NCBI GenBank assembly: GCA_001803565.1
Contig: MHDQ01000188.1
Location: 1 to 5,099, forward strand
From: Nitrospinae bacterium RIFCSPLOWO2_12_FULL_45_22
GTDB lineage: Bacteria > 2-12-FULL-45-22
Direction of reading: 5' to 3'
DNA: 5,099 nt
Made by a program: the position numbers and the translations under genes. The notes under the pieces were generated by a model that saw nothing but the letters and a program-made list of their open reading frames with translations, did not search any database and was not told the origin of the DNA. Shown in pieces: positions 1,091-5,099 of this stretch (its first letter is position 1; each line of letters starts with the position of its first letter).

Positions 1091-1120
1091 CCGCCGATTA
1101 AAATCGGCGGTTACTACCGC
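1091..1120. repeat. GC-rich perfect hairpin with an overlapping second hairpin
   Basis: Bases 1091-1110 form a perfect inverted repeat with 9-base arms (CCGCCGATT and AATCGGCGG) and a 2-base centre; bases 1090 and 1111 could add a G-U pair. Bases 1107-1120 form a second inverted repeat, GCGGT-TACT-ACCGC, sharing the right arm of the first, so the two are mutually exclusive folds. The element is GC-rich in an A+T-rich setting and lies exactly where similarity of the MNT protein to its family ends. Its minus strand supplies the TAA stop at 1098-1100. It resembles ends of IS200/IS605-type elements or REP-like units, but no transposase lies here. It could also act as a terminator, although no T-run follows on either side. 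Confidence 0.6.
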
Positions 1121-1373
1121 TTACTGTCTTGGCATATAAAGAGACTTGAAAAGGGAGTTCTTTAGGGATCATCTTCCTCAAGAAGATCTGCCTCTCAAAG
1201 AGGTGCTCGGGGAGGTCTTGTGCCAGGATAAAGATATCCCCATCGCTCCTCCCTGATCCCTCGCCTCTGGCCCGGGAGCCAAACAGGATGAGGCAGATAA
1301 GCCCTTCTCCTAATAGTGCAAGAAAGGCCTTTATTAACGGTTCAAAGATTGAGTTAATGGCTTCCCTTTCCAT
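1098..1373 (-). CDS. MNT-type minimal nucleotidyltransferase, C-terminally truncated
   Basis: A 91-codon ORF. Residues 27-51 carry the nucleotidyltransferase core: L-I-L-F-G32-S33-R-A-R-G ... R-S43-D44-G-D46-I-F-I-L-A, the G-S-x(10)-D-x-D motif of the MNT family (pol-beta fold). D44 and D46 would bind metal. The strand expected to carry the third Asp reads F-Q-V-S78-L-Y-A, with Ser in its place. Similarity seems to stop near T83; the last 8 residues are translated from the hairpin at 1091-1120, which also provides the stop. Family members are usually 100-150 residues or longer, and a likely tail is still present in the same frame at 957-1090. An in-frame TAG lies just before the ATG at 1373, so this start is forced; its Shine-Dalgarno site is poor. 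The ORF begins 24 bases after the CARF-HD gene and could share its transcript. Intact MNT proteins are commonly antitoxins of HEPN ribonucleases that AMPylate the HEPN partner. Here it is probably a dead or dying gene. Confidence 0.75.
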   Translation of the reverse strand: MEREAINSIFEPLIKAFLALLGEGLICLILFGSRARGEGSGRSDGDIFILAQDLPEHLFERQIFLRKMIPKELPFQVSLYAKTVSGSNRRF

Positions 1374-1397: not shown

Positions 1398-3896
1398 TTA
1401 AAAATTCTCTTTGTATAGTTGCTTATCGAACTCTCCATATTGATAGATATCTACTCCATATATGCATATCTCCCATTTATCAGTCTTCAAAACCTGTTTA
1501 CAAGACAAAATCTCCTTTTTAATCTCTCGGATAATATCATTTTTAATAATCTCCTGGGTATCAGGCGGATTAGGTGGGTCCCATTTAACATCCTTCCGAA
1601 GCTCAATGGCTATCCTGAATCTAAATAGCAAAGGAATGCTCAATTCGACATCAATCTTCTTACTATTTATTGGGTTAACCAACCGGAAAAATACGGCATT
1701 GACCCGGTTATGTAAATCAAAGTGTCTTTCCTGGATCATCTTGAATATGATCTTGTTGCAGCAAGAAAGCCATTCTGTAAGAATGAGATAATATTGTTTT
1801 TCTTTTCCGTTGGCTTTATTCTCTTCAACCCATACCCTCTGAACCACACCAAGAAGGGCTGACTCGAGATCTCTCAAGCCACTTTCCATCTTTTTCTTAT
1901 TCCCATAGTCAAAGATTAAGTTAATTTCTCTAAACTTATTGAAATTCTTATCCTCCATTTTTATCCAGGGAAGGATACGGTAATCCAAAATATCCTTTAC
2001 TTCTTTTCTTCTTTGGCTGGTTTTATTAATACAATCTGAAATCCTCCCACCCTTATTCTTTTTAAGCCCTTCATAAATATGCCATATGCCATCGAACCAC
2101 TTCTTTAAAGCCACCCAGTTCATCAGATCTTTAGAATCCATATGTTGAATAGAATATTGCATCATAGAAGACAACCTCTGGAGCGTTTTCATTTCAGTGT
2201 CGATCTCTCGTTCAGTTAATTCTATCCGCCTCCGCCGGTATTCTTCATCTATCACCCGTTCTCTCTGGTTGTCACAGGCATCAATAATTCGCTGAAGTGC
2301 GGTAATCAGCTCCATCCTAAGGTATTGTCCTGAGTTAATTAGAAATTGATTATTTAGTTCCTTAATGGGATGGTCTATCTCTTTCCAGTGATAGAATCTT
2401 TGGGGCAATTCAGAGGTCTTAATCAGGGGCATCTTTCTGCGGTGGTAGCGATAGGCAGCGATGATGGCATTAATATATGGCTCTTTATTGTTGCTTATAT
2501 CTTTACCACTAAATCCTATTGTCTCCGTCTTTTCTCCCTTCTTAACCTTTTCCAAGTCTCCCATTACTGCATAATAGGCAAGCTCGTGATGTAGATCCCG
2601 ATTAAAGGAAGGAAATGAGGTAATATCTACTTTTTTTGTCTTTCTAGTGTCATCTTCATTCCACTCAAAGTTGATTTCCCTACCCGAATGCCCAATGTCA
2701 TGAATCCATAAGGTGTAAAGGAGGACATAAATCTCCTCCGGAGACAGAAAGTCTTTAAAGGGATATTCTTTAGCCTGATTTCTATTCACTTCAAAAGTTT
2801 GCATGGGCTTTATTAGCTGAACAGCCATCTCAAGGAGCCGCTGGCAGTGTCCTCTAGCATGATCCACAGTCTCAGGGATGTTATCACCAAGCCAGATATA
2901 CTGGGTATCAGCAAATCTTTTCTCAAGATCTTCTTTTAGTGGATGACCCTCAGGGAATAGGGTTAGTGCCACTGCCCCACTTCCAAATCGGGTCAGTTTT
3001 GTTCTTGATTCCTCCCATCGCTTCTCAAGAATATCTTTAATAGGTAAGGCTGTATATCTTTTCTGCGATGGGTCTTCTATAAAGAGGTGCTGTAGTCTCA
3101 GGGGCAGGGACTCCAGCAACCCTTTTGCTTTGTCCTTATCTATATGAGGTAGGGCATAGATAATAGAACGGTATTCATTTCGGCCAATAATATCAAAATC
3201 CACAGGGAGTAATGGCAAGTCTATAATATTTGGTGATTGCTCATATAGATATTTTATCTTCACGCCCTCGTAACACATCCCTATGATGGAGGTATAAGGG
3301 ATGAGACCTTTGTAGCCCCCAGTAATATTGATGATGAATTCGTGGCCTTTGTGTTCTTCCTTTTCCAAGTAGAAAGTGATAGAAGAGATGAGATTCTGGA
3401 TACCTTCGGTTTGGAATCTATCAGCTTTCTTTACCTCAATCCCTTTTAAGAGTCCACCGCAAGGATGTTCTTCCATACAGTTTCCCAAGGAAGATTGGGT
3501 AATATAATTTTTCAGTACGAGAAAACAGAAGGCCCCTTCAGGGGTATCAGAAAAGAGTAGGACAATTTTATCCTGGTTAACTTTAGAACACCCGATCTTC
3601 CAGAGGCTGGCTACCTCAGCAGGGGCAAAAAGGCGGTGATTTTCGATTGTTGAGTTCAGTTTAGCTTTCAATAGACTTACAACTTCATTTACTTTACCCG
3701 AGTAGGAGTCCTGAAAATTCTTTAATGCCAGTTCAGTAGGCCAATTCGTAAACGGGTTTTTTAAGTATTTTGCAATATCTTTTCCTCTGGAGTATAAAGG
3801 GTTAGGTTCATTATCAATATGCTCGCTTACTAATTTCTCCAGGAGGGATGTACCTACTGTGGTAAAGATAAGTTTTGGAGGTATGTCCATATCCAT
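1398..3896 (-). CDS. CARF-HD fusion: putative type III CRISPR signalling effector
   Basis: An 832-residue protein. Residues 8-240 are a CARF domain of the APE2256/Csm6-like group: a first strand ending T-T-V-G15-T16-S17-L-L, a middle strand at 110-125 (V-L-L-F-S-D-T-P-E-G-A-F), the signature N-I-T-G193-G194-Y-K196-G-L-I-P-Y (190-201), and a tail with L-P-L-L-P-V-D-F-D (227-235). Such domains bind cyclic oligoadenylate made by Cas10. Residues about 335-545 are an HD domain: H346-x3-H350, H399-D400-I-G-H403, D-L-H436-H437-E, Y-R-Y-H485-R-R and D539-A-C-D542 give the full metal-binding pattern, close to the HD type found in conflict-system effectors. It could be a nuclease or a nucleotide phosphohydrolase; the sequence does not decide. 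Residues about 546-832 are charged, helix-rich in the first half, and unassigned. No signal peptide or membrane segment is seen, so it is likely cytosolic. It starts 7 bases after the RAMP gene, which implies one operon. The second ATG at 3890 (M3) has better ribosome-binding-site spacing and may be the true start. Confidence 0.87.
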   Translation of the reverse strand: MDMDIPPKLIFTTVGTSLLEKLVSEHIDNEPNPLYSRGKDIAKYLKNPFTNWPTELALKNFQDSYSGKVNEVVSLLKAKLNSTIENHRLFAPAEVASLWKIGCSKVNQDKIVLLFSDTPEGAFCFLVLKNYITQSSLGNCMEEHPCGGLLKGIEVKKADRFQTEGIQNLISSITFYLEKEEHKGHEFIINITGGYKGLIPYTSIIGMCYEGVKIKYLYEQSPNIIDLPLLPVDFDIIGRNEYRSIIYALPHIDKDKAKGLLESLPLRLQHLFIEDPSQKRYTALPIKDILEKRWEESRTKLTRFGSGAVALTLFPEGHPLKEDLEKRFADTQYIWLGDNIPETVDHARGHCQRLLEMAVQLIKPMQTFEVNRNQAKEYPFKDFLSPEEIYVLLYTLWIHDIGHSGREINFEWNEDDTRKTKKVDITSFPSFNRDLHHELAYYAVMGDLEKVKKGEKTETIGFSGKDISNNKEPYINAIIAAYRYHRRKMPLIKTSELPQRFYHWKEIDHPIKELNNQFLINSGQYLRMELITALQRIIDACDNQRERVIDEEYRRRRIELTEREIDTEMKTLQRLSSMMQYSIQHMDSKDLMNWVALKKWFDGIWHIYEGLKKNKGGRISDCINKTSQRRKEVKDILDYRILPWIKMEDKNFNKFREINLIFDYGNKKKMESGLRDLESALLGVVQRVWVEENKANGKEKQYYLILTEWLSCCNKIIFKMIQERHFDLHNRVNAVFFRLVNPINSKKIDVELSIPLLFRFRIAIELRKDVKWDPPNPPDTQEIIKNDIIREIKKEILSCKQVLKTDKWEICIYGVDIYQYGEFDKQLYKENF

Positions 3897-3905
3897 CCTT
3901 CCTTT
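3897..3905 (-). promoter_or_regulatory. Ribosome-binding site that decides the CARF-HD start
   Basis: The minus strand reads AAAGGAAGG, overlapping the TAA stop codon (3904-3906) of the RAMP gene. It abuts the first ATG (3894-3896) directly but lies 6 bases before the second ATG (3888-3890), the usual spacing. Start at 3890, giving 830 residues beginning M-D-I-P-P-K, is therefore the better supported choice. The overlap with the upstream stop suggests coupled translation of the two genes. Confidence 0.55.
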
Positions 3906-5064
3906 ATTCGTGCAGTTTGTAGGTATTAGTCTCTACTTCCTGAGCAGTAGGCAGGGGGTGTTCACAAATGGGTTTTCCATAGTGTGAGCAAGTTTTTATC
4001 GTGCAATTGGCGGTATAATTAAAAAAGCTGGGGCGATCCGGATACTTGATGGGAAGTCCATGATTTATAGGGGGATAGTTCAGGATAGCCCTCAAATCTT
4101 CCCAGGCATCAGTATGAAATGAATTTTTGGCATTCTTAAGCTTATTTATGAAGTAACTAACCTCTGTGCTATCTGCTCCCTTTTTGCCTTTGTATCTATC
4201 GAACATATTGATATTTTTAAAACCCTTTTCATCAAACTCTATCTTTATTGTCCCAAGGCCCAGTGGCTTTCCCAGTCCAATCTTATGGCACATGCTGTCA
4301 TCAAGCCTCAGGGATAAAAGGAGAAGGCCAAGTTCTTCATCAGAGAGGTTTTCATAGGTTACAGGAAAAGAAAGATTACCAGAGACGAGGAGTTCAATAG
4401 CATCGCAACCGGGAAAATACTGGGTCTTTATGGCTTCGTTATCTGGAGGTCTATGGTAATAGAATTTTCTTCCTCGTAAATTCCCATTATGATTGAGGTA
4501 AAAGCTTTCGTGGTGGGGCTTGGGGCTGGACAGGGCATGGTCTCTCAAGAACCTTCGCTCAAGGCTTCCATTCTCTATCTTTATATCGGAAAAAGAGACC
4601 TTTCCCCCAAAGCCTTCCTGTCCTTCCTGTCCTTCACCAACGGATTTATTAGATGTCCCAAAGAGTCTACAGCAAATGCAGAGACCCTTTTTTTCATCTC
4701 TTAGATAGCATCCATCATTTTTGCTTTCATCTGGAATACCATAAGAGAAATTAACCTTATACCTTCTTCTTTCCCTTTCTATTTCCCAGCTATTCCCACT
4801 GGGTGAATTATAGTTTGTTTTCTGAACATTCTGACCAACATTTTGCCACTGGGAATTAGGGATAGCGTTAAAGGCGGCTATAAGAGTTCTGTTTTGGATA
4901 TCATCTCTGTATTCCGCTGAAAACATGGAGAAGCAAGCACTGGAAATGGCCTCAGCTATGGATCTGATCATGCCTTTTACAGTAGAGCCAGGTATGAAAG
5001 GGAGACCATCATGGTTCCTGCTGAACCTCTTGTAAAAGACAAATTGGGGGGTTGGGTTTGGGGT
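3904..5064 (-). CDS. CRISPR type III RAMP (Cas7-like) protein, 5' end missing
   Basis: A RAMP-superfamily protein of the kind that forms the backbone or cap of type III crRNA complexes. The frame stays open upstream of the ATG at 4971 and encodes F-Y-K-R-F-S-R-N-H-D-G-L-P then F-I-P-G-S-T-V-K-G-M-I-R-S. This last block is the N-terminal RAMP signature (IPGSS-x-KG-x-x-R), so the ATG at 4971 is internal and the true start lies beyond the window. Counting from that Met: C98-I-C-C101-R-L-F-G105-T is the usual Cys-x-x-Cys-x-LFG block, G122-G-K-V-S-F-S-D follows, then P-H-H-E-S-F-Y-L (152-159), G-R-K-F-Y-Y-H (167-173) and the glycine-rich loop G232-L-G-K-P-L-G-L-G (232-240). The C-terminus has a Cys/His cluster (C323, C328, H330, C336, H338). 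The GRKFYYH and GLGKPLG blocks recall the TIGR03986-type RAMP group, but I cannot confirm the subfamily or the subunit position. Superfamily assignment is firm. It is co-transcribed with the CARF-HD gene. Confidence 0.9.
   Translation of the reverse strand, partial: TPNPTPQFVFYKRFSRNHDGLPFIPGSTVKGMIRSIAEAISSACFSMFSAEYRDDIQNRTLIAAFNAIPNSQWQNVGQNVQKTNYNSPSGNSWEIERERRRYKVNFSYGIPDESKNDGCYLRDEKKGLCICCRLFGTSNKSVGEGQEGQEGFGGKVSFSDIKIENGSLERRFLRDHALSSPKPHHESFYLNHNGNLRGRKFYYHRPPDNEAIKTQYFPGCDAIELLVSGNLSFPVTYENLSDEELGLLLLSLRLDDSMCHKIGLGKPLGLGTIKIEFDEKGFKNINMFDRYKGKKGADSTEVSYFINKLKNAKNSFHTDAWEDLRAILNYPPINHGLPIKYPDRPSFFNYTANCTIKTCSHYGKPICEHPLPTAQEVETNTYKLHE
4613..4635. repeat. 9-base tandem repeat inside the RAMP gene
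   Basis: The plus strand has CCTTCCTGT at 4613-4621 and again at 4622-4630, then a partial copy to 4635. On the coding strand it is in frame and yields a short Glu-Gly-Gln repeat (residues about 113-120 counted from the internal Met), in the variable loop between the CxxCxLFG block and the GGKVSFSD strand. Copy number could vary by slippage without breaking the frame. Confidence 0.6.
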
Positions 5065-5099
5065 TTACAAGAGGTTCAGCAGGAACCATGATGGTCTCC
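5001..5099. repeat. Perfect 36-base inverted repeat at the window end (probable fold-back artefact)
   Basis: Bases 5001-5036 and 5064-5099 are exact reverse complements, separated by 27 bases (5037-5063) that include the G-rich run GGGGGGTTGGGTTTGGGG. The inner arm and the spacer are coding sequence for the RAMP protein: the inner arm carries most of the F-Y-K-R-F-S-R-N-H-D-G-L block and the spacer reads P-N-P-T-P-Q-F-V. The outer arm is a copy of the opposite strand of that coding sequence and introduces an in-frame TAA at 5065-5067. An exact repeat that ends precisely at the last base of the sequence, and breaks a conserved gene, is best explained by a fold-back chimera or assembly error. 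A genuine hairpin cannot be excluded from sequence alone. Confidence 0.85.

Follow-up and report, generated by a model that had tools for sequence, protein, structure and literature searches.

The window analysed here, 5,099 bases long, is the entire contig C188 of a draft genome of a Nitrospinae bacterium (321 contigs, 3.67 Mb, estimated to be about 85% complete), and its right end lies within a RAMP gene of a type III CRISPR system. The final 36 bases are, almost certainly, a fold-back copy of the contig's own sequence with a technical origin, to be trimmed and without biological meaning, and it is very unlikely that the repeat is natural DNA. With a probability of roughly 0.9, bases 5064–5099 are an in vitro fold-back (snap-back) chimera, and the RAMP gene in the organism runs on from about position 5063 towards another contig of the same genome, C291. 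The right end of C188 contains the following features:

3904–5063, minus strand: type III CRISPR RAMP gene (TIGR03986-like, by its match to that family), the 5' end of which is absent from C188, with the 5' part assigned to C291:1–262.
5001–5036: inner arm, genuine coding sequence in the RAMP frame and the segment that was copied; its alignment to orthologs spans RF..N to G..(F/I/V)PGS.
5037–5063: 27-nucleotide loop, probably genuine coding sequence (a proline-rich linker), open in the RAMP frame.
5064–5099: outer arm, almost certainly a spurious inverted copy of 5001–5036, assigned as such from the perfect reverse complement, the TAA in the RAMP frame and the presence of the gene's N-terminus on C291.

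The outer arm is an exact, 36-nucleotide reverse complement of the inner arm, so that a segment is joined to its own nearby reverse complement across the short loop, and it terminates at 5099, the final base of C188. When three mismatches are allowed, the pairing of the arms lengthens inward to 5043/5057 (43 nucleotides, 93%). A first-pass annotation of this sequence had described a perfect 36-base inverted repeat reaching the last base, which is what is found. It had also correctly taken the outer arm to be the reverse complement of coding sequence, but it placed the source 37 bases or more inward, while the copy begins 28 bases inward; the junction, which it put at about 5063, can be refined to the boundary 5063/5064. 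On the minus strand, the outer arm reads RPSWFLLNLL in the RAMP frame and then a TAA stop (5067–5065, as the first-pass annotation had noticed), immediately before TPNPTPQFVFYKRFSRNHDG. After this TAA, the open RAMP frame reads TPNPTPQFVFYKRFSRNHDGLPFIPGSTVKGMIRS. The loop is located outside the ortholog alignment and is covered weakly, by paralogous RAMPs only.

Controls were taken from the same genome and comprised 140 of its 321 contigs (12 of these to 20 kb only), or 1.39 Mb with 268 true contig ends. At the remaining 267 true ends, no inverted copy of at least 14 nucleotides is present within 1000 nucleotides, and the next-longest perfect inverted repeat with a spacer of up to 300 nucleotides measures 26 nucleotides. 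Because this runner-up is so much shorter and the other contig ends have no counterpart, the 36-nucleotide repeat is far above chance. The C188 fold-back, the sole short-loop fold-back among the 268 ends, is an isolated event and not an assembly-wide one. As an overhang, its length is unremarkable, given that further contig ends extend 42–94 bases into sequence common to another contig and that C188 itself overlaps contig C210 by 95 bases at its other end. C188 and C210 share their first 95 bases without a difference and diverge afterwards, which means that C188 is cut short at a repeat or branch point on its left as well. The same spread of 42–94 nucleotides in the contig-end overlaps gives no signature of a fixed assembler k that could account for the 36-nucleotide length.

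The open reading frame that enters the right end of C188 matches TIGR03986 (152.9 bits) and Pfam RAMPs. It does not reach the TIGR03986 cut-off of 161.35 bits because the gene is cut: the fragment spans profile positions 64–107 and 333–557 and is without an N-terminus. Two orthologs, L150 from a Ktedonobacteraceae bin and L027 from genome G014, have the N-termini MNPYDFVRID and MNFNFKNPYNFVKID and extend about 60–70 residues N-terminal to the start of the C188 match; the RAMP gene is therefore expected to extend well beyond 5063 on the right. In the Ktedonobacteraceae bin, too, the contig with the ortholog stops within the corresponding gene (L150:7639–8469), without a fold-back. In the search for close relatives, the phylum search took in two genomes; at the protein level, genome_contigs yielded a single distant ortholog and viral_contigs yielded none.

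A search of the same genome locates its remaining RAMP genes on contig C291. At the left edge of that contig, the minus strand (262–1) contains an ATG start followed by 87 residues (MPFFINPYNFVRFDPDMTRRQREVPVIGHGLGQGNTGKIDCKVIIKTPIF...GRGGIITPQGY), with no stop before the contig edge. This fragment, which starts MPFFINPYNFVRFD, matches TIGR03986 positions 1–50 and contributes 24.7 bits as a separate piece, the two pieces not having been scored jointly. Neither end of the TIGR03986 family is found on any further contig of the genome, and each profile stretch occurs once. On C291, the RAMP N-terminus is preceded by a csx19-like gene, two Csx7-like RAMPs, csx10, another RAMP and cas10, a neighbourhood in which the csx19-like, Csx7-like, csx10 and cas10 genes identify a type III-D locus. 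The gene order of L150 and L027 agrees: in each, the counterpart follows a RAMP and a small gene that occupies the position of csx19. The strands agree, with the left end of C291 facing the right end of C188. From this RAMP N-terminus at the edge of C291, on the matching strand and in the matching gene order, the genuine sequence to the right of C188:5063 most likely leads to C291 and not to an inverted copy of C188, and an outer arm with an in-frame TAA does not belong in a gene that continues there. The same placement supports the suggestion of the first-pass annotation that a chimeric read or an assembler fold-back was responsible. The reading frames of C188 and C291 would be compatible if the number of bases in the gap between the contigs is zero or divisible by three.

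The chimera probably arose as follows. A plus-strand 3' end halting near 5063 would fold over and anneal to a neighbouring stretch of the molecule itself or of a similar one, and its extension would give a reverse copy of 5036 to 5001. Once sequenced, the chimeric molecule would let the assembler lengthen C188 by 36 bases beyond a local assembly break. Such self-priming could have occurred during amplification or during library preparation, and the arm was presumably present in a single read or a small number of reads. The organism's own gene would pass from about 5063 towards C291 as one uninterrupted type III-D CRISPR RAMP gene.

Several possible causes of the contig break at this position were considered. 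A stable fold is not favoured: compared with shuffled sequences, neither the single strand as far as the junction nor a hairpin across the gap, modelled with the two contig ends joined, folds any better (z about -0.6 for both). The G-rich loop does not stand out from the controls; long runs of G or C occur at few contig ends (5 of 268). Neither the junction nor the sequence round the inner edge of the loop has copies in the viral contigs.

Some points weigh against the snap-back chimera and the proposed continuation of the gene. The chimera is something we infer and not something seen as such, and a single end in 268 contains a fold-back, with no sign of the numerous inverted chimeras expected from whole-genome amplification, which speaks against heavy amplification. 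No sequence overlap exists between C188 and C291. Their join is deduced from the gene, the strand, the order and the tiling of the profile, and the gap itself is unsequenced; of the uninterrupted gene that the first-pass annotation proposed to look for in related contigs, the N-terminal part was found, on C291. The position of the feature exactly at a contig end would also suit a mis-join by the assembler or a gap-filler, in which the software itself doubled back along the opposite strand of one contig and no chimeric molecule was involved, as would the other contig ends that extend 42–95 bases into sequence common to another contig. We consider this unlikely: a graph or overlap join requires shared bases, while the loop is unpaired and the pairing at its base is limited to a few bases and contains mismatches, and since the contig-end overlaps vary, 36 nucleotides is no k-mer signature. 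A chimeric molecule or read is probably the better source, because a turn-back by the assembler needs shared sequence at the junction, where only a few imperfect pairs are present.

The unsequenced gap leaves some room for a real 36-base-pair inverted duplication, in the genome or in a minority of cells, that interrupts and switches off the type III-D RAMP gene. Such a duplication is less probable still, as the reading frame is open and without decay in either half of the gene, no second such repeat is found in 1.39 Mb, and the end of the arm coincides exactly with the end of the contig. If a linear replicon ended in a covalently closed hairpin (telomere), reading round that end would likewise yield fold-back sequence, but here the fold is located within a conserved gene and the loop of 27 nucleotides is an open coding frame. 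The replicon does not end at the fold, given that the other part of the interrupted gene is on C291, and a hairpin telomere is extremely improbable. The snap-back chimera thus remains by far the most probable of these explanations.

The RAMP gene is adjoined by an 832-residue open reading frame (1398–3896, minus strand) with a Cas_APE2256 (CARF-type) region and an HD-CE region, a combination that would suit an accessory effector of a type III system. Two separate nucleotidyltransferase-like open reading frames, at 104–646 and 1098–1373 (both minus strand), are AbiEii/DUF2204-like and MntA-like, respectively, both by weak matches.

The fold-back is an ordinary sequencing artefact and matters for quality control only. 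Left untrimmed, it lends the appearance of a broken gene to a CRISPR gene whose parts simply lie on two contigs, and it masks the link between these contigs, which jointly contain a single type III-D locus. Such ends can be checked easily by asking whether the piece that the broken gene lacks is present at the edge of another contig.

The gene resembles other members of the TIGR03986 family in that C291 and C188 together tile the profile and the gene order matches that of other loci; it differs in the extra linker sequence of the C188 fragment when compared with three orthologs. The added segments, in 4600–5063 (minus strand) and C291:1–110, comprise a lengthened linker where the contig breaks (about 25–35 residues) and some 35 residues after SAEYRDD. 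In multiple displacement amplification (MDA), most chimeras (406 of 475) are of one type, in which neighbouring segments are joined in inverted orientation (Lasken and Stockwell 2007, PMC1855051). As at C188, little complementarity is needed at the junction of these chimeras; the remaining contig ends here are without such joins, however. Sonicated libraries also produce inverted-repeat chimeric reads (PMC10908179). In the PDSM model proposed for these, which involves library fragmentation and end repair, human DNA libraries were used and pre-existing inverted repeats are the starting point, whereas at C188 few priming pairs are present. The likeness lies in reads that join a strand to its own inverted complement, and the chimeras of this model arise from partly single-stranded fragments, without genome amplification.
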